A DNA stretch of 11,504 nucleotides from Candidatus Brocadiia bacterium. Its GTDB lineage: Bacteria; Planctomycetota; MHYJ01; JACQXL01. A program made the position numbers and the translations under genes. The notes beneath the pieces are model-generated. The model was not told the origin of the DNA, ran no database searches, and saw nothing but the letters and a program-made list of their open reading frames with translations. Where the stretch lies: positions 1 to 11,504 of the forward strand of contig JAGUXD010000085.1 of assembly GCA_020062035.1 (NCBI GenBank), written 5' to 3'. The stretch's first letter is position 1. The number at the start of each line of letters is the position of its first letter. Below, piece after piece: positions 1-11,504 of the stretch.

Positions 1-48
1 CTGCTGAAAAATGATTTTATATCTTATTAAACGAATAGACTTTTTCCG

Positions 49-203
49 TCAGCCCAATGGGTTGGTTTTTATCTTCTTCAACTCGCTTTTAGGCACCTCA
101 GTTCGTCGTCCCAACGGAATAAATGCCCCTTCTACTCTTAACTTACTGAAATAATTTCCTGCTCAAATTTGGTAAAATATTCTTCCCCTACCCGCTTACG
201 CAT
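49..203 (-). pseudogene. Possible decayed coding fragment downstream of the methyltransferase
   Basis: No intact gene is visible in the first 224 bases. On the minus strand a 21-codon frame starts at an ATG at 203 and stops at 138. It overlaps a second open frame of 37 codons (162 down to a TGA at 49) in another register. Read one after the other they give protein-like sequence: KRVGEEYFTKFEQEI, then VEGAFIPLGRRTEVPKSEL. The first frame is also in register with the methyltransferase stop at 225-227. This pattern fits a frameshifted remnant of an unidentified gene, but the pieces are short and I recognise no family, so chance is not excluded. A weak CCCA-A-TGGG palindrome lies at 53-61. Confidence 0.25.
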
Positions 204-863: not shown

Positions 864-878
864 AATCCCAGTGGGATT
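864..878. repeat. Intergenic perfect palindrome
   Basis: AATCCCA-G-TGGGATT has 7-bp arms around one central base. It lies in the 33-nt gap between the FkbM and membrane methyltransferase genes. No T tract follows on the minus strand, so it does not look like an intrinsic terminator. It could be an RNA-processing hairpin or one copy of a dispersed palindromic element. Confidence 0.6.
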
Positions 879-881
879 GTT

Positions 882-1679
882 CTATTTGCGGATGGCCAAC
901 TGTCCCGCCCAGGCGGGACTGCGGGTGGCATAAATATATCTGCCGTTATACTCTGAACTTGTTTCAAAGCCCAATTTCTGTAGTTTATCTTGCATCGTGT
1001 CCGGGGATGCACCTTCTATTGCGTGATATTCCATTACAATAGAACTGATTCTGGCAGATATATCTGTTGTTAAACTATTAATTATCTCGTGTTCCGCTCC
1101 TTCGCAATCTAACTTAAGAAAATCTATTCGCAAGAGATTATGCTGGGCAATAATATCAGCGATAGAAATAGACCTGACCTTTTGGGTCCTGCGTCCGGCG
1201 TCCGGCGTTTCCTGCGTCCTTTGTCGGAGCGGGATGGTTAATGTAGAAGAACCTGTGGATGTGGGTTTTGCCAGATAAAACTCTCGCTCACCGCTTCTTC
1301 CGGAAACACACATTTCAAATGCAGTTATATTCATCAATTTATTAAGTTCTATATTTCTTTTTAGGAGTTGATAATTACTCGGTTCAGGTTCAAAAGATAA
1401 TACTCTGGAAACCCGAGGCGCAGCCAAGACACTGAAACAACCAATGTGAGCCCCCACATCAACTACTGTTGAATCCTTCTTCAACGGCACAAAATCCCTG
1501 ATATAGTGTTTTGTTACAAAGTTTGACCTCGCAATCATCAGGTCATTAGTATTAGGGCGAACCCAGAGTTTTGTGCCATTGCGCATTTCTAAGACGAAGT
1601 CCTTACGCAATAGTCCAAAACGTTCACAATAAAACTGAAACCAGTTCTTGAATACAGCAATATTTTTAGAAAGCGACAT
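882..1679 (-). CDS. FkbM family SAM-dependent methyltransferase
   Basis: A 265-residue cytoplasmic class I methyltransferase. SAM motif I is STVVDVGAHIGCFSVLAA (70-87), the acidic post-I strand is SFEPEPSNYQLLKRN (95-109), and the FkbM signature is IDFLKLDCEGAEHEII (185-200). FkbM enzymes O-methylate sugars of polysaccharides, LPS-like glycans or natural products. Placement among glycosyltransferases suggests methylation of a surface-glycan sugar, which is inference. Two stretches look foreign to the family. Residues 152-166 (QRTQETPDAGRRTQK) are encoded by a GC-rich direct-repeat block just before the conserved VRSISIADII strand. Residues 254-260 (SPAWAGQ), near the C-terminus, are encoded by a perfect 18-bp palindrome. 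Both are in frame and spare the catalytic motifs, so the enzyme may still be active. No Shine-Dalgarno is obvious. Confidence 0.92.
   Translation of the reverse strand: MSLSKNIAVFKNWFQFYCERFGLLRKDFVLEMRNGTKLWVRPNTNDLMIARSNFVTKHYIRDFVPLKKDSTVVDVGAHIGCFSVLAAPRVSRVLSFEPEPSNYQLLKRNIELNKLMNITAFEMCVSGRSGEREFYLAKPTSTGSSTLTIPLRQRTQETPDAGRRTQKVRSISIADIIAQHNLLRIDFLKLDCEGAEHEIINSLTTDISARISSIVMEYHAIEGASPDTMQDKLQKLGFETSSEYNGRYIYATRSPAWAGQLAIRK
902..919. repeat. Perfect 18-bp palindrome inside the FkbM coding region
   Basis: GTCCCGCC-CA-GGCGGGAC has 8-bp GC-rich arms and a 2-nt centre. In the minus-strand coding frame it supplies SPAWAGQ near the protein's C-terminus. It is far more GC-rich than the surrounding gene, which suggests a small mobile or dispersed palindromic element captured in frame. 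Confidence 0.8.
1187..1219. repeat. GC-rich direct-repeat block inside the FkbM coding region
   Basis: TCCTGCGTCC occurs at 1187-1196 and again at 1210-1219. Between and overlapping these, GCGTCCG is repeated in tandem at 1191-1197 and 1198-1204. The block encodes charged, low-complexity residues (about 152-166) immediately before the conserved strand of the FkbM domain. Its composition differs sharply from the flanking AT-rich coding sequence. Confidence 0.75.
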
Positions 1680-1712
1680 AACGCAAGTTTTTATGGCTCC
1701 GCTAAATAATTA

Positions 1713-1907
1713 CTATGCAGAATAGTTTTGTCTGCATATCAATTCTTCCATTTTATCTAAGGAATCTTCCCATCTGAATTTCAGGGACATTTTATATCCA
1801 TTTTCTGAAATCTTGGTTAAGAGGGTTTTGTCAGATAGCAATTTAATAATATTTTCTGCCAATGCTTCTGGATTTTTAATAGGCGGAACAAGAAAAGTTA
1901 TTCGCAT
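1713..1907 (-). pseudogene. Internally deleted glycosyltransferase (GT4-like) remnant
   Basis: Only 64 codons. The first ten residues, MRITFLVPPI, look like the N-terminus of a GT4-type glycosyltransferase, whose starts often read MKITFLxPPI before the first glycine-rich loop. From residue 11 the sequence (KNPEALAENIIKLLSDKTLL...ENGYKMSLKFRWEDSLDKMEELI) matches the extreme C-terminal helices that normally follow a LLVPPKNPEALA motif. Everything between, about 300 residues including the nucleotide-sugar site, is absent. The ends may have been joined through the shared VPP coding sequence. The ATG overlaps the end of the upstream glycosyltransferase by 10 nt, as expected for an original coupled start. 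A genuine small protein is possible, but no catalytic residues remain. Confidence 0.72.
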
Positions 1908-2890
1908 ACAATCCTTTTTAATATCCCTATCAATTTCGGTGCATTTGCCTTGACCGAATAATATTTTTCCACTATTTCTCTTGTGGCTAAACCCAGATTC
2001 CTTCGCAAGGCGTTATCTTCTATCAATAGAGCAATCTTATTAAACCAGTCATCATCATTGGAAGCCAGAAAGCCGTTGACTCCATCCCGAATAATTTCCT
2101 TATGAATTCCGACTGCTGAAGCAACTGAAGGAACACTTGATGCCAGATACTGTAGTAATTTCGTAGCGCATTTGCCTTGCGACCACGGGTCATCAGGCAA
2201 TGGTGCTAATCCAATATCAAAACTCAATACATCCTGTGCCTCATCTTTCTCAACCCATTGTTTCTTAATGATTTCTATATCAGGATTGTTAAAGAACTCA
2301 CTACAGACTATTTTTAGTTTGATATCTTTGTATGCCTGGCTCAACTTACCGAGAACTCCTTCTAAAGATTTTAAGAATACAAGAGATGAACTTGTGCCAA
2401 TCCATCCCAGAATAATATTGGGGGCTCCTGATGAGTAGGATTTTACAGGATATTTTGAGGTATCAACGGTGGTTGGAATAATCCATATTTTCTGATTATA
2501 CGGTTCGGCTAACGATTTCAGATAAGAATTACCTGCAATGATGCCGTCGCATCTTTTTACCATAGAAATAAATTGTCTCATCCGCAGGGGCGAAGCCGGC
2601 GTGGGGTGTCTGGAACTATTAAACATCACGGCATCGTCAAAATCATAGATTAGTTTGTGCCCTCTTGCCTTAAATCGTTTGAGCCAGAAAGGATGCACTC
2701 GCTTTTTCTGGAAAAATACCACATCAAAATTACTGGCTCGGTTAAGCAATCTCCACCATCCGAAAATAGTCTGTGGGAAATAAACTACCTCGCTATTAAT
2801 ATCTGCTTTTTTAAGATAATCTAAATATTGTACCACCCGATGCCGTGTGGCAGGATGGTTCCCGGAACGAACGATAAATAATACCTTCAT
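1898..2890 (-). CDS. Glycosyltransferase, GT4-like (group 1 family)
   Basis: A 330-residue cytoplasmic or membrane-associated glycosyltransferase. The N-terminal Rossmann half contains YDFDDAVMF (82-90) and DGIIAGNSYLKSLA (115-128). The C-terminal half carries LGWIGTSSSLVFLKSL (161-176), FDIGLAPLPDDPWSQGKCATKLLQYLA (224-250) and SVASAVGIHKEIIRDGVNGFLA (255-276). These fit the GT4 donor-binding half, with a shortened linker typical of the group that begins with DFDDA. Donor and acceptor sugars cannot be read from sequence. It starts 12 nt after the GT9 gene and its last 10 nt overlap the start of the deleted remnant, so it is in the operon. No Shine-Dalgarno is apparent. Residues 95-103 (HPTPASPLR) come from a GC-rich patch that may be another short insertion, but this is weak. 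Confidence 0.88.
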   Translation of the reverse strand: MKVLFIVRSGNHPATRHRVVQYLDYLKKADINSEVVYFPQTIFGWWRLLNRASNFDVVFFQKKRVHPFWLKRFKARGHKLIYDFDDAVMFNSSRHPTPASPLRMRQFISMVKRCDGIIAGNSYLKSLAEPYNQKIWIIPTTVDTSKYPVKSYSSGAPNIILGWIGTSSSLVFLKSLEGVLGKLSQAYKDIKLKIVCSEFFNNPDIEIIKKQWVEKDEAQDVLSFDIGLAPLPDDPWSQGKCATKLLQYLASSVPSVASAVGIHKEIIRDGVNGFLASNDDDWFNKIALLIEDNALRRNLGLATREIVEKYYSVKANAPKLIGILKRIVCE

Positions 2891-2902
2891 AACAAAATAT
2901 GG

Positions 2903-3976
2903 TTAATTTCCTTTAAGTATTATCTCCTCAGAAACCCTCTGAAATACTTCATCTACGGTTATGGATGACATACAAATCGGCTTAACACACTTTCGTTTCT
3001 GGCAAGGGCTACACAGAACTTTATTTTTATCAGGTGATATTACAATGGGTTTTCTATTATCAGAAAAGGAATATGGGGCATAAATTCGCGGGTCTTTTGG
3101 TCCATAAAGCCCGATAACCTGAGTGCCGACAAGATTAGCCAAATGTAGCGGAGCAGAATCGCTACCGATGAATAACCTTGCCCGTTTTAGCAATAAGCCG
3201 AGCCGATTAAGAGAAAGTGCTTGAGGTAAAATTACTGCTTTATGTTTCATCTGCGAGTTGATAGATTCTGCTAACGCTTTTTCTCTGCCAGCCCAAGAAA
3301 TCATAGCGATTATATCAAATGTTTCTATGAGACGGTCCAATAATTGTGCGTATTTTTCAGGAGCCCATCTTTTGAAGATGCCAAAATCACTCGTTCCCGG
3401 ATGCACCACCACTAATGGCTTATTTTCCGGATTATGAATGGATAGAAAACTATCAATATAAGATTCATTTTCTTTAGTAAAGGATAAAGTTGGGCAAGAC
3501 CTTTTTTCAGACAGAAATTTACTTATATCAAGACCGAGTTCTTTCAGGATTAAAATATTTCTTTCTACACGATTGATGGGCTGGGATGGTAAGATTATTT
3601 TATAATTAGTAAATAATGCATTTCCCTCTCTGGCGGGTTTTATTCCGATACGATGTGATGCGGAACTTAAATAGGTAATGAGGCCACTTTTTAGATTGCC
3701 CTGAAAATCAAGAGTTATATCAAATTCATCTTTACGAATATCCCTGATAAGTCTGCAAGTTCTTGTTATTTTCTCAGGGCTTCGCCTATCAAAAATAAAA
3801 ACCTTATTAAGATAAGGAAGCCCAACAAGTAAATCTTTTGCCTTATCCTCCACGACCCAGGCGATATAACTTTTTGGGAAATTATGCCTTACAACCATAA
3901 GTGCAGGTAGGGTGTTGATTACATCACCGATTGCACTTAACCTTACTATCAGAATTTTATTGAATTTCAGTGTCAT
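2903..3976 (-). CDS. Glycosyltransferase family 9 (lipopolysaccharide heptosyltransferase-like)
   Basis: A 357-residue GT-B enzyme. The N-terminal half has KILIVRLSAIGDVINTLPA (7-25), with the family's catalytic Asp at D18, then FDITLDFQGNLKSGL (85-99) and RIGIKPAREGNALFTNY (109-125), which resembles heptosyltransferase I. The C-terminal half has VVVHPGTSDFGIFKRWAPEKY (189-209) and the GT9 signature LFIGSDSAPLHLANLVGTQVIGLYGP (268-293). Family members transfer heptose from ADP-heptose to the LPS inner core at the cytoplasmic face. Heptose is likely but unproven here, because GT9 also includes other specificities. Six cysteines lie near the C-terminus: C322, C325, C330 and C335 within SPCQKRKCVKPIC, plus C74 and C161 earlier. 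The clustered four are a common GT9 feature. First gene of the minus-strand operon; no Shine-Dalgarno. Confidence 0.92.
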   Translation of the reverse strand: MTLKFNKILIVRLSAIGDVINTLPALMVVRHNFPKSYIAWVVEDKAKDLLVGLPYLNKVFIFDRRSPEKITRTCRLIRDIRKDEFDITLDFQGNLKSGLITYLSSASHRIGIKPAREGNALFTNYKIILPSQPINRVERNILILKELGLDISKFLSEKRSCPTLSFTKENESYIDSFLSIHNPENKPLVVVHPGTSDFGIFKRWAPEKYAQLLDRLIETFDIIAMISWAGREKALAESINSQMKHKAVILPQALSLNRLGLLLKRARLFIGSDSAPLHLANLVGTQVIGLYGPKDPRIYAPYSFSDNRKPIVISPDKNKVLCSPCQKRKCVKPICMSSITVDEVFQRVSEEIILKGN

Positions 3977-3987
3977 AAGAATATGAT
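3960..3987 (+). promoter_or_regulatory. Candidate sigma70-type promoter for the kinase gene
   Basis: TTGAAT (3960-3965), a 16-nt spacer, then TATGAT (3982-3987). Transcription would start near 3994, leaving a leader of about 26 nt that contains AAAGGG (4007-4012), 7 nt before the ATG at 4020. It overlaps the 5' end of the divergent GT9 gene. Confidence 0.4.
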
Positions 3988-4016
3988 ATTATAGCAACTT
4001 ATTTATAAAGGGTAAA
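3988..4016 (-). promoter_or_regulatory. Candidate sigma70-type promoter for the minus-strand glycan operon
   Basis: On the minus strand, TTTACC (4016-4011), a 17-nt spacer, then a consensus TATAAT (3993-3988). The start point would fall near 3981, only about 5 nt before the GT9 ATG at 3976. This agrees with the absence of a Shine-Dalgarno and suggests a leaderless or nearly leaderless transcript. Confidence 0.42.
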
Positions 4017-4019
4017 GGA

Positions 4020-5021
4020 ATGTTAGAGTTACGGAATAGTTATCCAAATTTGGTTATACCCGAATATTTTCAGGTAAAACACCTGCGAAATGAATGGCGG
4101 ATTATCCACCAGGATTATTTAAGCGAAATAAATTCTATTTTTGACAACAGGAAAGACGCCGAGATTATCCTTTCCCACCCCGATGGACTTCAGAGCAAAC
4201 TTGGAAGAGGAAAATATCCAATAGTAAATATAAAAGATATAGAAGTAATTGTAAGAACTTATAAACGAGGTGGATTACCAGCGTGGTTATTACCTGATGT
4301 ATTTATCAATCCCAGAAGGGTATTAAACGAGTTAATTCTGACTGAAAAAGCCCGACATAATGGCGTCCCCCTGGCTGAGATATTAGCAGTGCAGATAAAA
4401 TGGGTCTTTCCATTTTTATATACGGCTAAAATTATCTCCAAAAAGATACAGAATACACAAACATTAGAAGATTATCTTATCTTTTTATCCAGAAGATACG
4501 GCTCTGATTACAAGAATCTTTATCAGATAAAAAAGGGGCTGATTGGTTCTATTATTCATACAATGAAGCAATTACATCAAGCAGGCATATTTCACAACGA
4601 CCTGAATATTCGTAACATTCTGATTCAAACGAAGCCTCAGCCCTTACAGGATAAACTTCGTCCTGACCCTTTCGTCAGGGATGTCCCCGTTCTTTCAACC
4701 TATATTATAGACCTTGATAAAGCGGTGTATGAGGAGCCGCTTTCTTGGGAGAAGAGGGTAAACAATCTAATTCGTCTCAATCGCTCATTAGAGAAATTAT
4801 GCTTCAGATATAAATCTCTTGATATAATTACGCATACAGACCGTTTGTCGTTTCTTATGGAGTATTTTAAGAATAGTGATATAAACAAACCACAACAGAA
4901 TAAATTCATTAACAAATGCGTTAGGAATATACGAGTGCATAAATGGTGGTGGGCGATAACTCATTCATCCCACCCCGTTTCAGTCTGCCAATGCGGCCGG
5001 GCCGGTACGAGACAGGAGTAA
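4020..5021 (+). CDS. Lipopolysaccharide kinase (Kdo/WaaP family)-like protein
   Basis: A 333-residue protein-kinase-fold enzyme. VIVRTYKRGGLPAWLL (76-91) is the KdkA/WaaP-type basic strand. The catalytic loop is GIFHNDLNIRNILI (189-202), with Asp at D194. The metal-binding motif is YIIDLDKA (228-235). Members phosphorylate Kdo or heptose in the LPS core using ATP at the inner membrane, which fits the divergent GT9/GT4 genes. Between catalytic loop and metal motif the family normally has only a few residues. Here about 20 extra (roughly 204-226, including LRPDPFVRDVPV) come from a palindrome-bearing segment. The last 18 residues (from 316, SSHPVSVCQCGRAGTRQE) are encoded by another GC-rich stretch and look like an added tail. 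AAAGGG at 4007-4012 supports the start. Kinase activity with this insertion is untested. Confidence 0.85.
   Translation: MLELRNSYPNLVIPEYFQVKHLRNEWRIIHQDYLSEINSIFDNRKDAEIILSHPDGLQSKLGRGKYPIVNIKDIEVIVRTYKRGGLPAWLLPDVFINPRRVLNELILTEKARHNGVPLAEILAVQIKWVFPFLYTAKIISKKIQNTQTLEDYLIFLSRRYGSDYKNLYQIKKGLIGSIIHTMKQLHQAGIFHNDLNIRNILIQTKPQPLQDKLRPDPFVRDVPVLSTYIIDLDKAVYEEPLSWEKRVNNLIRLNRSLEKLCFRYKSLDIITHTDRLSFLMEYFKNSDINKPQQNKFINKCVRNIRVHKWWWAITHSSHPVSVCQCGRAGTRQE
4657..4692. repeat. Palindrome-bearing insertion in the kinase gene
   Basis: CCTGAC (4662-4667) pairs with GTCAGG (4674-4679) across a 6-nt loop. TTCGTC is also repeated directly (4657-4662 and 4671-4676). The segment codes for LRPDPFVRDVPV between the catalytic loop and DLD motif of the kinase, where homologues are short. 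Confidence 0.65.
4975..5018. repeat. GC-rich segment at the kinase gene 3' end
   Basis: A composition outlier containing CGGCC-G-GGCCG (4994-5004), bounded by GTCT (4983-4986) and AGAC (5010-5013). It encodes the last residues of the kinase (VSVCQCGRAGTRQE) after the apparent natural end near WWWAITH. Possibly a short element that replaced the original stop codon. Confidence 0.4.
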
Positions 5022-5039
5022 AATAACTTCCTATTTTAG

Positions 5040-5067
5040 TTGAATTTTAAGATGGATTTTATATAGA
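5040..5067 (+). promoter_or_regulatory. Candidate promoter for the acyl-CoA synthetase gene
   Basis: TTGAAT (5040-5045), a 16-nt spacer, then TATAGA (5062-5067) in the 95-bp AT-rich gap. It uses the same -35 hexamer and spacing as the candidate at 3960. The -10 box is only a partial match. Confidence 0.3.
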
Positions 5068-5116
5068 TATAAAAAATATGCCGCTAAAAGAAGACAGGAA
5101 CAGAGGACTGAGAAAT

Positions 5117-7096
5117 ATGAAAGAAGTAATTTGGGAACCATACGGTAGTTATATCACTGAAAGTAATATCACCCGCTTTATGCAGAGGCATTCTATCAAG
5201 ACCTACAATGAGTTAATTAAACGCTCAACAGACGATATTGAATGGTTCTGGGATGCGGCTCTTAAAGACCTTGGTATTGAGTGGTATAAACCTTATACCA
5301 GGATACTTGATACCTCGGCTGGTTTCCCCTGGGCGAAATGGTTTATTAATGGGAAGATAAATATTGTGCATAACTGCATAGACCGACATATCGCAAATCC
5401 CAAATCGCAAATCCCAAATCCTCCGCCAAAGGTGGATCCGCCCCTGGAGGACAAAATTGCTTTCATCTGGGAAGCCGATGATGGTGCAGTTAGGAAAATT
5501 AGTTATGACGAGTTAAATAAAATGGTTTGCCAAGTTGCGAATGGCTTAAAGTCATTAGGTATTAAGAAAGGTGATACAGTCGGTATTTATATGCCGATGA
5601 TACCAGAACTTGTTGCGGTATTTTTCGGATGTCTCAAGATAGGAGCCGTGGTTATCCCGATATTCTCCGGCTTTGGCGCAACGGCTTTAGCAACAAGATT
5701 ATCTGATGCTGAAGCAAAAGTTGTGTTCACTGCAGATGGTGGATTTCGCCGTGGTAAACAAGTGCTACTTAAAAAAGAGGTTGATATTGCCGCAAAGGAT
5801 ATACCAACTATCAAGAATATAATTGTAGTTCAACGATTGGGGCTGCCTGATGTACCGATGACAAAAGGCCACGATTTATTCTGGAACGAGGTCATTTCTA
5901 ATCAATCAGAAGATTGTAAAACAGAGGTTCTGGATGCCGAAGATATTGCCCTGATTATATACACCTCAGGCACGACCGGGAAACCCAAGGGTACTGTTCA
6001 TACGCATGCCGGCTGTCTTGCCCAGATGTCTAAGGAATTGGGCTATTATTTTGATGTAAAGCAAAATGATATTTTTTTCTGGTTCACTGATATTGGCTGG
6101 ATGATGGGGCCTTGGGAAATTATCGGCGTCTCGTTTTTCGGTGCAACTTTTGTAATCTACGAAGGTGCGCCCGATTATCCTAAGCCAGACCGACTCTGGG
6201 ATATAATAGAACGACATAAAATAAATTCGCTCGGTATCTCGCCAACCGCTATCAGATTACTGATTACTTATGGCGATGACTGGGTCAGGAAACATAACCT
6301 TTCCTCTTTGCGAATACTCGGCTCAACCGGCGAACCGTGGGACCCGGAATCATATCTCTGGCTCTTTAAGAAGATTGGACAAAAACGGTGTCCGATTATA
6401 AATATCTCAGGCGGAACAGAAATTGTCGGATGCCTTCTTTCTCCTTTACCGATTACTGCCCTCAAACCCTGCACCTTACGAGGTCCGGGACTGGGAATGG
6501 ATATTGATGTATTTGATGACAAAGGCAAGCCGATTCGGGGAGGAATTGGTCATCTGGTCTGTAAAAAACCAGCACCATCTATGACCAAGGGTTTTCTTAA
6601 AGACCCGCAACGATATTTAGAGACCTATTTTTCCCGCTGGGAAAATATCTGGTATCACGGTGATTGGGCAAAGGTAGATGAAGATGGATTCTGGTTTCTT
6701 TATGGCAGAAGCGATGACACCATCAAGGTCGCAGGAAAAAGAACAGGGCCCGCAGAAATAGAATCCGCATTGATTGAACATCCGGCAGTTAGCGAAGCAG
6801 CCGCAATCGGTGTCCCTCACGATATTAAAGGTGAAACCGTTGTTTGTTTTGTAGTCCTGAAACCCTCGGTTCTGCCTTCAGAGACCATTAGAGAAGAACT
6901 TAAAGGACAGGTGGTAAAGCATTTAGGAAAAACCCTAAAACCTGATGAGTTAAAATTTGTTAAAATGCTACCCAAGACCCGTTCTGCTAAAATTGTTCGC
7001 GGCGTAATTAAACGAAAGTATCTAAAACAGGACTTGGGCGATATTTCTTCTGTGGAAAATATGGATGCGATAGAAGAAATTGGTCGTGCCGTTTAA
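5117..7096 (+). CDS. AMP-forming acyl-CoA synthetase (acetyl-/acetoacetyl-CoA synthetase-like)
   Basis: A 659-residue ANL-superfamily enzyme that activates a carboxylic acid with ATP to an acyl-AMP and transfers it to CoA. The ATP loop is YTSGTTGKPKG (282-292). Further motifs are NISGGTE (429-435), YHGDW (513-517), the GRSDD hinge (530-534) and, in PKTRSAKI, the adenylation lysine K625. Acetate-specific Acs has WWQTETGG where this has NISGGTE. The lost pocket tryptophan argues for a larger acyl group; acetoacetate is one option. Residues 92-111, between VHNCIDRH and the IAFIWE strand, are encoded by a repeat block absent from typical relatives. An ATG at 5078 is in frame, but the ATG at 5117 has AGAGGA (5102-5107) at 9-nt spacing and gives the family's usual MKEVIWEP start. 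Confidence 0.93.
   Translation: MKEVIWEPYGSYITESNITRFMQRHSIKTYNELIKRSTDDIEWFWDAALKDLGIEWYKPYTRILDTSAGFPWAKWFINGKINIVHNCIDRHIANPKSQIPNPPPKVDPPLEDKIAFIWEADDGAVRKISYDELNKMVCQVANGLKSLGIKKGDTVGIYMPMIPELVAVFFGCLKIGAVVIPIFSGFGATALATRLSDAEAKVVFTADGGFRRGKQVLLKKEVDIAAKDIPTIKNIIVVQRLGLPDVPMTKGHDLFWNEVISNQSEDCKTEVLDAEDIALIIYTSGTTGKPKGTVHTHAGCLAQMSKELGYYFDVKQNDIFFWFTDIGWMMGPWEIIGVSFFGATFVIYEGAPDYPKPDRLWDIIERHKINSLGISPTAIRLLITYGDDWVRKHNLSSLRILGSTGEPWDPESYLWLFKKIGQKRCPIINISGGTEIVGCLLSPLPITALKPCTLRGPGLGMDIDVFDDKGKPIRGGIGHLVCKKPAPSMTKGFLKDPQRYLETYFSRWENIWYHGDWAKVDEDGFWFLYGRSDDTIKVAGKRTGPAEIESALIEHPAVSEAAAIGVPHDIKGETVVCFVVLKPSVLPSETIREELKGQVVKHLGKTLKPDELKFVKMLPKTRSAKIVRGVIKRKYLKQDLGDISSVENMDAIEEIGRAV
5390..5450. 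repeat. Tandem repeat plus palindrome inserted in the acyl-CoA synthetase gene
   Basis: ATCGCAAATCCCAA is repeated exactly (5390-5403 and 5404-5417). It is followed by a hairpin-forming segment: CCTCC (5420-5424) pairs with GGAGG (5446-5450), or alternatively TCCGCC (5422-5427) pairs with GGTGGA (5431-5436). The block is in frame and encodes about 20 proline-rich residues in the N-terminal domain. Confidence 0.8.
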
Positions 7097-7103
7097 TATA
7101 GCG

Positions 7104-7727
7104 ATGGAAGACAAAACTAATCTCAATCCGTTAAATAGCAATGTTCTATTATTGAATAAGTATTACATTGCTTTAAGAGTCATTTCTGCGCGTCGGGCAT
7201 TTCTTTTCCTTGCCAAAGATTATGCCGAGGTGATTAACAAAAATAACGGACGATTTGAGGGTTATAGGTTCTATCACTGGATTAAAGAATCAGGCAATGA
7301 CGGCTACCTTGATGACGAATACATCCATACGCCCACTTTGCGGATACTGGTGCCACGGGTAATCCGTTTATTAGAATACGATAAAATGCCGAGAAGGGAA
7401 TGGAAATTTAACCGCAAAAATATTATGATTCGTGATAATTATCAATGTCAATATTGCGGAAAAAAATATTCACTCGGCTTTCTAACCATAGACCATATTA
7501 TTCCTCGTTCTCGTGGCGGGACAACATCATGGGTAAATGTGGTTACTTCCTGTACCAAGTGTAACACCAAAAAAGGCGGCAGACTACCTCAAGAAGCAGG
7601 AATGAACCTGATAAAAAAACCACAAGCCCCCAAGTTTGACCATAGTCTTATGAGATTGCTCATCAACCCCAAATACTCTATCTGGAAAGAATTTATTAAA
7701 GATATCTCTACTAAACTCAGCACATAA
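7104..7727 (+). CDS. HNH endonuclease
   Basis: A 207-residue protein counted from the ATG at 7104. An in-frame TTG at 7080 would add 8 residues and overlap the previous gene, but the conserved part begins only at VLLLNKYYIALRV. The HNH domain has a CQYC knuckle (C115, C118), FLTIDHIIPRSRGG with the catalytic D130-H131, WVNVVTSCTKC with N145 and the second zinc pair (C150, C153), then NTKKGGRLPQEA. The fold cuts DNA with a beta-beta-alpha-metal active site. The N-terminal half (ALRVISARRAFLFLAKDYAEVI) is shared by stand-alone bacterial HNH proteins of unknown role. No methyltransferase or intron accompanies it, so a restriction or homing role is not supported. It lies 7 nt after the synthetase stop, so the two are probably cotranscribed. 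No Shine-Dalgarno is clear. Confidence 0.9.
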   Translation: MEDKTNLNPLNSNVLLLNKYYIALRVISARRAFLFLAKDYAEVINKNNGRFEGYRFYHWIKESGNDGYLDDEYIHTPTLRILVPRVIRLLEYDKMPRREWKFNRKNIMIRDNYQCQYCGKKYSLGFLTIDHIIPRSRGGTTSWVNVVTSCTKCNTKKGGRLPQEAGMNLIKKPQAPKFDHSLMRLLINPKYSIWKEFIKDISTKLST

Positions 7728-7740
7728 TTTATGTGCTGGG
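7716..7740. repeat. Strong palindrome spanning the HNH stop codon
   Basis: CAGCACATAA-T-TTATGTGCTG (7718-7738) is a perfect 10-bp inverted repeat. It extends by a T-G wobble and a C-G pair to 7716-7740. The HNH TAA is inside it, and the next gene's ATG lies 12 nt beyond. The following TTTT (7747-7750, within GTTTTCTT) is displaced, so it is at best a weak terminator. It may instead act in mRNA processing, or hide the next gene's ribosome-binding region. Confidence 0.6.
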
Positions 7741-7752
7741 CGAAGTTTTCTT

Positions 7753-10700
7753 ATGGAATTAAAAGGCGATTTATCTTCTGTTTCGTTAGTTAATATCTTT
7801 CAGGGTATTATTTCCGAAGGCAAGGAAGGAACCCTGATTATTTATGATGATAAGAGTAAAAAGGAAATATATTTTTCTAAGGATGGTATTCGGCTTCTTT
7901 CAAGTGGTGAGCGAAAGGGTTTAGCCATCGGCGAGTTACTGGTCAATAGAAAAATTATTACCCCGGCACAACTATCTCAAGCCCTCACAACCCAGAAAAC
8001 AACCTCTCTGAAATTAGGGGAAATTCTTTGCCATATGAAGGTCATCACCCCTCAGCGGATTGATGAAATAATTAAAGAACAGATAGAAGATGAAATTTGT
8101 GATGTTTTCAGATGGGAAAACGCAAGGTTTGAGTTCACGGGCCCTCCGCCCACAAAATCTTTAATGTCCGAACAAAACCCGGTTACTGTTTTAAGTTTAG
8201 ATGTCAATCACCTGCTCAAAAAGATATCACAACGTTCACAAGATTGGGAGAGCGTTAAAGGACTTTTCAAGGGGTATCACTCTATCATCAGGTTATCTGA
8301 TAATTATGAGGAAAAGTTAGAAGCAATTCAATTGTCAGAAGATGAAAGAGTTATCTTTTCATTGATGGAAGGATTCAAGACATTAGATGATATTGTAAAG
8401 TCATCACCGCTTGGTGCGATTGGGACATATAAGGCAGTTTATAACCTTTCCCAGAAAGGGATTGTTTGTGAAATCGGGCTTAATGAAATTAAAGACTATG
8501 CCCGACAACTGCGTAAGGAGAAGAATCTAACAGGTGCATTATTATTTTACCAACAGGCATTAAGTATTAATCCCCAAGATTTAGGCATTCTTGAAAATGT
8601 CGCTGAAATTCTGGAAAAATCAGAACGTTTTACTGAAGCCGGCGAAAAATATAAACAATTAGCCAAACTTCTTACAGACAAAAGCGATATTAATCTGGCG
8701 ATTACTTACTACAAAAAATCTCTCTCTTTTTTACCAGCAGATGAAGAAATTTATAACATCCTATTTAATCTCTGGTTGATTCAAAACCAGAAATCAGAAG
8801 CAATAAAGACAGGTAAAGAGTTGCTAAAACTCTATGCGCAGTCTAAAAAGATTAAAGAACTGCTTGAATTGGTAGACAAGATTTCATCCATTCAAACACC
8901 CGGTGGGACCGATGTTGAATTGCGCGCCTATGTTGTATCCGCGTATTTCCAGATGGGCGAATATAATAAATCAAGAGAGGAACTTGATAAAATCATAAAG
9001 GACATACCGCAGAGTAAAATTGATTTGCTGATTAAAACATATGAAAGTGTCTTAAAAATAGAACCCAGACAATCTGATGTCCGTTATCGGCTGGATGACC
9101 TTCGCAAAACTAAACTCCAACAAAGGAAAAGAACAAGAAAGCGTCTTGCTATTACTGGCGGTATTATTTTCGTCTTACTTATTGTTGCTCTTATTGGCTG
9201 GAACGATTATGCCACTTATAAAAGATTTGAACTCCTTAAACAGGAAGTTGACAATTTCAAGAAAAAAGAAGATTACGAGTCAGCCATTAGTAAATATCAA
9301 CAATTCAAATTTACCCTTGCGTTTTATACCAGAAGTGCCCTTCAGAAAGAAATTAATTCTCTACACCTCCTTTCACAGAAAAGGGAAGATAAAATTAATG
9401 CTATTTTTAATAAGGAATTGATATCCTTACAGGAAAGATACAAAAACATTCAGGTAATCAAAGAGAAACAGAACTACGATAACGGCTTGAAAGAGATAAT
9501 AGAGATAGAACCAATTGTAATCAGCGCGATTGATAACCTGCCGAACAGAATTCATTTATTAGGCGGTAGCGATACAATTATAGAAAACCATCTTCAGAAT
9601 TATCAGCAGTTTTTAGAAGAAATCCGGAGAGACAGATTAGCAACAGAAAAATATCTTGAGTCCGCTTCATCGCTACATCAGAAGTCAAAAGAACTTACAC
9701 AGATGGGAAAATTAGAAGAATCCGCCAGAGTAATAAGAGAATTGGTGAGTGCATATCCGGCTTCTCATATGGCACAAACAGCCAGAATTCCTATTTATGT
9801 AGAGACAATTCCCTCTGGTGCTGATGTCTTTCTTAATAATGTAAAACAAGGGAAGACCTCCTTAATACTTTATCTTTCACTTAAAGAAACATCTGTGATA
9901 AATCTTAAGAAAAGGGGATTCTCTTCGTTCACTAAAGAAATCAAGTCATACGAAGACCCGTTTTTACGCATCTCATTAGAAAAGGCATTCAAATGGCAAT
10001 TTAATACTAATTTGCCGCTTGAAACAACACCCCTGATATATAACGATATGGTTTTTATTACGACAAAAGATGGCTATCTTAAGGCAATTGATTCACATAA
10101 TGGCTCATTAAAATGGGTCTTCAAGACCGATACCCCCTCAGAGATATACTCATCGCCCCAGATAAATAATAATATGATTATATTTGGGGCGACAGATAAT
10201 AATCTCTATGCGGTGCGTTCAAATGCGCCGATTAAACTTTTCCAGGTCAAAACAAATGCTCCTATTCGTGCCTCTGCATTCTTTTCACAGGATAGAAAAA
10301 TAACACTAATAAACAACACTGATAAAAACCTTTATGCTATTTCTGAAAATAGCGCGGTTTTATGGAAATATAATGCTAAGGCAAAAATATCTGCCGGTGG
10401 GGTAGTAGATAATATGATTGTCTATATTACCTCCGAAGACGGGCTTCTTCACGCCCTTGATCTGACAAACGGCGAAAAAATCTGGGCTTTATCTCTGGGA
10501 GAAAAACTTACACCTCCTATTATTGATAAGAGAATGCTTTATGCCGGTAGCACAAATAAGACAATCTATGCGGTTAATCTGGCATCGCGAGCAATCCAAT
10601 GGTCATATCAACTTAAACACGAAATAACAGCCCATTTAAGTTTAGCAGACGATTCTCTTTTAGTTCCCTGTAATGATGGTATATTACATTGCTTTGATAT

Positions 10701-10950
10701 AAATACGCAAAAAATCAGATGGCATTTTAATACTAAAGGTCCGTTAAGCGCAGGTGCGATTGTTTCCAGAAAAGATAATGTTGTTTATTTTGGTAGTGAA
10801 GATACATATTTTTACGCGATAACTCTTTCAAACGGGCAAGAAATCTGGAAGTATAAAACCAATAATAAGATTCGTGCTATACCATCTATGGATGATACGA
10901 CTGTTTACATCGGTAGTGACGATGGTTTTCTGCACGCAATAGAAAAATAA
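7753..10950 (+). CDS. DUF4388/PATAN-MshEN-TPR-TM-PEGA-PQQ propeller membrane protein
   Basis: A 1065-residue membrane protein with no recognised name. Order: a DUF4388 (PATAN)-like domain (1-55; MELKGDLSSVSLVNIF...); an MshEN/T2SSE-N-like region with two LGELL...IT..QL repeats (57-127); a linker; TPR-like helices (about 245-440, e.g. GALLFYQQALSINP); a basic patch (QQRKRTRKR, 456-464); one transmembrane helix (465-484); a long helical, probably coiled-coil region (490-665); a PEGA domain (680-742, VETIPSGADVFLNN); and a PQQ-type propeller (745-1065). Eight W-containing repeats (W748, W788, then WKY, IWA, QWS, RWH and IWK forms) end in DGFLHAIEK, which can close the ring with the first strand. 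The basic patch predicts N-terminus in the cytoplasm, propeller outside. PATAN and MshEN modules occur in signalling and pilus/secretion ATPase systems; a scaffold or sensor role is inference. Confidence 0.88.
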   Translation: MELKGDLSSVSLVNIFQGIISEGKEGTLIIYDDKSKKEIYFSKDGIRLLSSGERKGLAIGELLVNRKIITPAQLSQALTTQKTTSLKLGEILCHMKVITPQRIDEIIKEQIEDEICDVFRWENARFEFTGPPPTKSLMSEQNPVTVLSLDVNHLLKKISQRSQDWESVKGLFKGYHSIIRLSDNYEEKLEAIQLSEDERVIFSLMEGFKTLDDIVKSSPLGAIGTYKAVYNLSQKGIVCEIGLNEIKDYARQLRKEKNLTGALLFYQQALSINPQDLGILENVAEILEKSERFTEAGEKYKQLAKLLTDKSDINLAITYYKKSLSFLPADEEIYNILFNLWLIQNQKSEAIKTGKELLKLYAQSKKIKELLELVDKISSIQTPGGTDVELRAYVVSAYFQMGEYNKSREELDKIIKDIPQSKIDLLIKTYESVLKIEPRQSDVRYRLDDLRKTKLQQRKRTRKRLAITGGIIFVLLIVALIGWNDYATYKRFELLKQEVDNFKKKEDYESAISKYQQFKFTLAFYTRSALQKEINSLHLLSQKREDKINAIFNKELISLQERYKNIQVIKEKQNYDNGLKEIIEIEPIVISAIDNLPNRIHLLGGSDTIIENHLQNYQQFLEEIRRDRLATEKYLESASSLHQKSKELTQMGKLEESARVIRELVSAYPASHMAQTARIPIYVETIPSGADVFLNNVKQGKTSLILYLSLKETSVINLKKRGFSSFTKEIKSYEDPFLRISLEKAFKWQFNTNLPLETTPLIYNDMVFITTKDGYLKAIDSHNGSLKWVFKTDTPSEIYSSPQINNNMIIFGATDNNLYAVRSNAPIKLFQVKTNAPIRASAFFSQDRKITLINNTDKNLYAISENSAVLWKYNAKAKISAGGVVDNMIVYITSEDGLLHALDLTNGEKIWALSLGEKLTPPIIDKRMLYAGSTNKTIYAVNLASRAIQWSYQLKHEITAHLSLADDSLLVPCNDGILHCFDINTQKIRWHFNTKGPLSAGAIVSRKDNVVYFGSEDTYFYAITLSNGQEIWKYKTNNKIRAIPSMDDTTVYIGSDDGFLHAIEK

Positions 10951-11003
10951 TTTTCAGATTGGCTTGACGTAGAAATTATATTAATAGGAACCACAGACCC
11001 CGA

Positions 11004-11020
11004 CCCCGATTTCATCGGGG
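11004..11020. repeat. Perfect palindrome downstream of the propeller gene
   Basis: CCCCGAT-TTC-ATCGGGG is a 7-bp stem with a 3-nt loop, preceded by a tandem GACCCC pair (10996-11007). No T tract follows, so it is not a canonical intrinsic terminator. Confidence 0.7.
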
Positions 11021-11063
11021 CACTGATAGGTGAAGAGATAAATCGCTTTACTTTTCCCCTTTC

Positions 11064-11092
11064 CCACCCCCTCAAAGAAAAGGTGGGGGTGG
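11064..11092. repeat. G/C-rich inverted repeat downstream of the propeller gene
   Basis: CCACCCCC (11064-11071) pairs with GGGGGTGG (11085-11092) over a 13-nt A-rich loop. No U tract follows. It resembles the other short GC-rich palindromes scattered through the window. Confidence 0.65.
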
Positions 11093-11238: not shown

Positions 11239-11504
11239 CGGTTTGTAGCCGATGGAGTATCCCCATTGGAATTACTACCGAGTAGAACCCCGAATAGAAC
11301 CCTGGATAGCACTCCAGGAAGCACTCCGGATAGCATTCCGGATAGCATTCCAGTAAGCACTGCAGTAAGCACTGCAGTAAGCACTGCGGTAAGCACAAGA
11401 GGAAGTAGTAGATTAAGCGGTCAATTAAGCAGTAGTAAAGGCGTATGGGATAGTATTCCCCCCTATCACCTTGCATTTCAATCTAACCCATTGTCAGTGA
11501 TAAG
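11239..11504 (+). CDS. Possible partial Ser/Thr/Pro-rich repeat protein, open to the window edge
   Basis: After a TAG at 11236-11238 the plus-strand frame is open for about 88 codons to the end of the window. It reads RFVADGVSPLELLPSRT, then four-residue units (DSTP, GSTP, DSIP, VSTA), then RLSGQLSSSKGVWDSIPPY. There is no ATG. A TTG at 11266 with GGAG at 11254-11257 is the only plausible start, and that is weak. Ser/Thr/Pro-rich units resemble flexible linkers of secreted proteins. A hydrophobic frame of VLTA/MLSG units is open on the minus strand over the same repeats, so periodicity alone may keep several frames open. It is also in register with the propeller gene upstream, despite intervening stops. 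Confidence 0.25.
11282..11437. repeat. Degenerate 12-bp tandem repeat, about 13 units
   Basis: Consecutive 12-mers are ATAGAACCCTGG, ATAGCACTCCAG, GAAGCACTCCGG, ATAGCATTCCGG, ATAGCATTCCAG, then TAAGCACTGCAG twice, TAAGCACTGCGG and TAAGCACAAGAG, decaying into TAAGCGGTCAAT and TAAGCAGTAGTA. The variant changes gradually along the array, from CCC to TCC to TGC types, as expected from stepwise slippage duplication. There are no spacers, so it is not a CRISPR array. Unit length is a multiple of three, which preserves reading frame. Confidence 0.85.

Follow-up and report, generated by a model that had tools for sequence, protein, structure and literature searches.

What are the short GC-rich palindromes and repeats that are scattered through this stretch of planctomycete DNA, and how have some of them come to be translated within unrelated genes? 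The window analysed here is the entire contig C169 (11,504 b), and it belongs to a bin of 1.19 Mb in 211 contigs that is 64% complete. Close homologues of its Kdo-kinase protein that carry organism names come from Planctomycetota, which places the group in that phylum. An earlier note had listed eight modules between and inside genes, and all eight are present in the sequence. Three genes of the window host them:

882-1679, - strand: FkbM-type methyltransferase (PF05050)
4020-5021, + strand: Kdo/WaaP-like kinase (PF06293)
5078-7096, + strand: acetyl-CoA synthetase, ACS (PF00501, PF13193, PF16177; PDB matches)

The other genes encode a PEMT/ICMT-type protein, two glycosyltransferases, an HNH endonuclease and a DUF4388/TPR/beta-propeller protein. 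The modules are as follows:

864-878, intergenic: palindrome AATCCCA-G-TGGGATT, 7-bp arms around one base; its core TCCCA(G/C)TGGGA is family F6
903-918 (listed as 902-919): palindrome TCCCGCC-CA-GGCGGGA; 902-919 is a perfect GC-rich hairpin with 8-bp arms
1187-1219, inside the FkbM-type gene: direct repeats of about 7 bp (CTGCGTC/CGGCGTC/CGGCGTT), no palindrome
4657-4692: hairpin region, translated as DKLRPDPFVRDVP in one of the loops of the Kdo-kinase-like protein; the hairpin at 4662-4679 is perfect, with 6-bp arms and a loop of 6
5390-5421, + strand, in the ACS gene: 7/14-bp tandem repeat ATCGCAAATCCCAA
5422-5436 and 5437-5451, + strand, in the ACS gene: two tandem 15-bp degenerate palindromes TCCGCC-NNN-GGNGGA (family F5)
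7716-7740: palindrome with 12-bp half sites CCCAGCACATAA, the first base pair mismatched here; 7718-7738 is perfect, with 10-bp arms
10989-11026, intergenic: module CCACAGACCCCGA-CCCCGATTTCATCGGGG, whose core at 11004-11020 is a perfect hairpin with 7-bp arms
11064-11092: hairpin CCACCCCC...GGGGGTGG, 8-bp arms around a long loop, part of a longer repeated stretch

The 902-919 palindrome sits in an imperfect 35-bp extension (895-929), which has a fully extended copy in L003 and encodes residues of the FkbM-type protein close to its C-terminus. At 7716-7740, the left arm of the palindrome includes the TAA (7725-7727) that ends the HNH endonuclease gene.

Hairpins of this kind exceed chance both in the window and in the rest of the genome. 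The window holds 7 with arms of at least 6 bp and at least 4 GC pairs, versus 2.3 in Markov shuffles; three of the 7 lie in a tandem array at 11283-11396 that was absent from the earlier list. We sampled the genome by picking 60 of the 211 contigs by number and leaving out nine that were all N, and the remaining 51 contigs (305,357 b, or some 26% of the assembly) contain 76 hairpins with arms of at least 7 bp and at least 5 GC pairs, versus 11.8 by chance.

Do the individual modules recur? Six of the eight do (the palindromes at 864-878, 902-919, 5390-5450, 7716-7740, 11004-11020 and 11064-11092), so the set is not one of single-copy sequences. For 1187-1219 and 4657-4692, no second copy was found in the own-genome loci examined, which comprise roughly one quarter of the assembly together with the fetched loci. 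In the assembly, the core of 902-919, TCCCGCCNNGGCGGGA, occurs 20 times without a mismatch and 43 times if one mismatch is allowed; its composition predicts 0.0016 exact copies, and the reversed control has none. A search of 23 genomes, our own included, found the sister family TCCCGCT-NN-AGCGGGA (TCCCGCTNNAGCGGGA) in 35 copies here, 20 in G002, 16 in G003, 13 in G008 and 6 in G001, with 0-1 copies in each of the 18 others. A 26-nt long form of 11004-11020 occupies 18 places in the assembly (up to 3 mismatches); G002 has it once, in an exact copy, and 28 other relatives lack it. Its core and left flank are common to six other sample contigs, and the window's own copy diverges from the long form past the core. 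Families F5 and F6 each have 10 sites in the 51 contigs plus the window, those of F6 being divided between 2 inside ORFs and 8 outside. The 7716-7740 type forms palindromes at three further places (L003, L014 and L009/L079), and 11064-11092 has one other copy (L086:137-165) within a 244-bp match at 75%. Such copy numbers bear on the view that no mobile element is involved, and that replication slippage and template switching in unconstrained DNA produce the palindromes and heptamer runs where they stand. An in-place origin alone would not yield one shared core, scattered genome-wide in 20 exact copies for TCCCGCCNNGGCGGGA and 35 copies for TCCCGCTNNAGCGGGA, nor a 26-nt form at 18 places nearly restricted to this genome.

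Some repeats are compound, and the window has others of its own. At the L009/L079 place (L079, ~3500-3540) a palindrome of the 7716-7740 type has an F6 palindrome at its centre, a CCCCGAT palindrome lies between the arms of the ACCGCAGAGACGC type in L076 (~10870-10935), and an F2 palindrome abuts the 11004-11020 type in L245 (~353-420). Window positions 1-76 are a dispersed repeat with a terminator-like hairpin at 48-66; it matches L063 at 96% over 76 bp and L061, L031 and L019 over shorter lengths. The array at 11283-11396, with a 12-bp unit resembling AGCACTCCAGTA, runs on to the window end, and this stretch is matched at 80-87% by L074, L001, L067 and L027, always at a contig end or close to one. 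A 5-mer look for a PELVEG-type repeat returned nothing closer than near matches in the own-genome loci.

The suspicion that several element families are present was borne out, with one refinement: 902-919 and 11004-11020 belong to a single superfamily in which the half-sites are constant and the inner pairs change together. The frame YCCCG...CGGGR is fixed and the inner base pairs vary jointly. At CCCG-N6..8-CGGG sites in the 51 contigs and the window, both inner pairs are complementary in 42 of 56 cases, compared with 10 of 152 for a control of seven other half-site pairs. When all loop lengths are admitted, CCCG/CGGG gives 47 complementary sites of six inner-pair kinds, and the next outer pair also matches in 44 of them.

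Paired changes that maintain palindromy are also what speaks for a selected role in RNA, as transcription terminators or other hairpins, together with a weak excess of T-rich tails (15 of 62 palindromes, 24%, versus 15% at random positions). The position of the palindromes makes this explanation very improbable. As the earlier note had described, they recur both intergenically and in genes, where they are translated in frame: 27 of the 62 lie in ORFs and 35 outside, on crude longest-ORF-first gene calls. Since 89% of bases are called coding, the palindromes are concentrated between genes (binomial 9e-18); the 27 sites within ORFs speak against terminators. Moreover, only 1 of the 25 intergenic sites with both neighbours lies between convergent genes, versus 17% of intergenic bases, and selection on RNA hairpins leaves the insertions in enzyme loops unexplained.

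How far does the superfamily extend? Families F1 to F4 reach 124 per Mb in our own genome, at least 72 in the family and at least 37 in the order; the latter two densities are lower bounds because some of the family and order loci overlap. None of the loci had been fetched by palindrome pattern. F1-F4 were not found in 180 kb of class and phylum loci or in 441 kb of named records from other phyla, both sets being GC-richer. In whole genomes, which all represent other genera, exact F1 occurs 6, 39 and 23 times in the family, 1, 5, 0, 11 and 64 times elsewhere in the order, and 0-3 times in single genomes of the class and phylum. Its distribution within the order is patchy (none in G006, one in G004, 64 in G008). 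Most of the modules are thus dispersed, multi-copy sequences, far above chance and almost limited to one order of Planctomycetota. This distribution makes an artefact of assembly or binning scarcely credible. The bin is fragmented (211 contigs, 64% complete) and several contigs end in repeats, but the cores are shared by genomes of the family and order that are independent of this one, and the inserts lie within intact frames of conserved enzymes.

Could a RAYT (Y1) transposase have moved the palindromes as REP elements, leaving the in-gene copies as by-products? Y1_Tnp genes occur in 8 of 8 same-order relatives, and intragenic REPs are on record (PMC3733652). However, a Y1 gene was not found in our own genome (64% complete), and the numbers of Y1 genes and F1 palindromes are uncoupled: G006 has 5 Y1 matches and no F1, and G008 has 1 and 64. 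Any palindrome of F1-F6 is found at only 2 of the relatives' 8 Y1 loci. GTAG and CGTC tags lie within 10 nt of 2 and 3 of the 62 palindromes, against a background of 1.8 and 1.4. We regard mobilization by RAYT as improbable. The tests disfavour both GTAG/CGTC REPs and terminators.

What happens when a repeat falls within a gene? The earlier note had proposed that three genes of the window carry residues foreign to their protein families. This holds for ACS and the Kdo-kinase-like protein, whose homologues do not have the residues; the FkbM homologues are too remote (23-34% identical) and too variable in length at the module sites to support it. The ACS is 17 residues longer than that of G001 (81% identical) and 15 longer than that of G005, and its insert (15-17 residues) is present in 0 of 14 readable relatives. 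At the site of a single heptamer unit in G001, the window shows a 14-bp duplication together with two 15-bp palindromes in tandem. In 115 of 120 proteins, our own included, the linker is 10-15 residues long; in the other five it measures 18-32, and these are all among the 14 best-scoring proteins and carry differing inserts. A value of 1e-5 on these homologues is indicative because they are not independent (the P0033 linker is that of G008). In the Kdo-kinase-like protein, the loop has 23 residues, compared with 3-8 in 18 of 22 homologues, 10 in one and 17-19 in three with other sequences there; the HSPs of G003 and G013 jump over residues 204-226. On these alignments, this protein has a true insertion of about 16 residues. 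Structure models predict both the ACS insert and the kinase loop to be without secondary structure.

The pattern extends to other proteins and genera. In-gene hosts include aspartokinase, MurF, a HisA/HisI/HisE-type fusion, WaaA, HtrA-like proteases and ribosomal protein S5, whose N-terminal extension contains the palindrome, beyond the reach of PDB matches. A further palindrome lies in what we take from its sequence to be an IleRS-like C-terminus. Some copies are thus in frame in housekeeping genes, at linkers, turns or termini, and F1 is read in different frames as SRLGGT, SRPGGI, SRRGGT or SPAWAG. We compared WaaA, MurF and aspartokinase among homologues of more than 38% identity, with L277 truncated at the site. 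Our WaaA insert is absent from 7 of 7 aligned relatives, and the loop instead holds AATCCGC-type units in G002 and G003 and CTAACAA-type units in G005 and G007; the 7-bp units in the inserts of G003, G005 and G007 were delimited by eye. In a WaaA-like protein (L067:1832-3223), residues 293-339 form an insert (about 47 residues) with several hairpin pieces. On contig C146, part of a GTPase-like frame (one TGA) is similar, at 57%, to 28 residues of the WaaA insert; we leave this match aside, since a reading of the DNA did not show it to be an element. In MurF, the palindrome at one orthologous place differs between our genome and G001 with length unchanged, G003 has a 24-residue insert with inverted CCCGCC/GGCGGG, and PDB alignments are ambiguous. 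Aspartokinase has gained 3 residues (9 bp) relative to 6 of 6 readable relatives, beside a 16-bp palindrome, and here the PDB alignments agree. A phosphatase-like gene of G002 contains a palindrome that our own orthologue (60% identical) does not, with CAATTCG flanking it on both sides. Orthologous loops of ACS, Kdo kinase, WaaA and MurF therefore carry unrelated inserts in different genera.

Several of these cases favour an origin in place. Aspartokinase gains 9 bp, not the 16 bp of its palindrome, next to a half-site that the relatives resemble too, and therefore half of the palindrome may have pre-existed. MurF palindromes differ at the same place at equal length, the WaaA loop holds 7-bp runs of differing sequence, and the ACS heptamer occurs once in G001 and is duplicated here. 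Nor was a regular target-site duplication, the mark of a MITE, found: flanking direct repeats of at least 5 nt accompany 4 of 142 copies (1.3 expected), and those of at least 4 nt accompany 13 of 142 (about 4.9 expected). In-place formation as the whole explanation nevertheless seems unlikely to us, given the shared cores and the 26-nt form.

We consider it probable that most of the modules are small non-autonomous repeats, both palindromes of 15-45 bp and 7-bp tandem repeats, which form several families and have multiplied in one order of Planctomycetota. We propose that a copying and insertion process would bring copies to new sites, and that hairpin-templated repair or template switching may finish or maintain the second arm. 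Templated completion is suggested because aspartokinase gains only 9 bp and the MurF palindromes differ at the same place. The in-gene copies would be the survivors, those that kept the frame, introduced no stop and lie in tolerant loops, and the repeats would be selfish or neutral rather than functional parts of proteins. More tentatively, and with considerable doubt, we can imagine an order-wide superfamily of self-perfecting palindromes, in which short half-sites are scattered and hairpin-templated synthesis adds the second arm on the spot, so that the arms stay complementary as the inner bases drift; with the 7-bp slippage repeats, this superfamily would be a continuing source of in-frame extensions at shared permissive loops of core enzymes.

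Why do such short repeats matter? The loops of ACS, Kdo kinase, WaaA and MurF form a natural series in which to study how parasitic or slippage-made DNA becomes protein, and how short palindromes originate and remain perfect. The repeats also account for odd repeated peptides in the annotated proteins of this group.

How do these repeats compare with known systems? We found no description of these repeat families, or of insertion at shared loops, in the open-licence literature, and several described systems resemble them in part. Heptanucleotide repeats of Beggiatoaceae (for example TAACTGA) are 7-bp direct repeats dispersed in the genome (PMC4679880); here the 7-bp units are different, and they occur in the coding loops of ACS and WaaA, accompanying palindromes or taking their place. 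Nematomorph mitochondria have coding inverted repeats whose arms stay complementary, and template switching has been proposed for them (PMC6649704). Those palindromes reach 284 bp, whereas ours are short, dispersed families with shared cores. GTAG/CGTC REPs, according to PMC3733652, are palindromes of 20-40 bp, chiefly intergenic, at times in ORFs or giving a stop codon, and reported from Planctomycetes too. Our palindromes are likewise short and mostly intergenic, with some in ORFs and one supplying a stop codon, but the tags are not enriched here and a link to RAYT genes was not found. Rickettsia palindromic elements, as presented in PMC10969869, are in-frame palindromic repeats in unrelated genes, with several families per genome. 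The in-frame insertions in ACS, WaaA and the phosphatase-like gene of G002 are of this kind. Membership among the Rickettsia elements, the precedent named in the earlier note, does not follow: those elements are about 150 bp long and have a conserved peptide, whereas the present ones measure 15-45 bp, have no conserved peptide, are read in varied frames, have other sequences and belong to another phylum. The repeats behave like Rickettsia palindromic elements and intragenic REPs and are classed with neither. Rickettsia is the best-known case of palindromes inserted in frame, and an uncultured order of planctomycetes shows the same with different element families.
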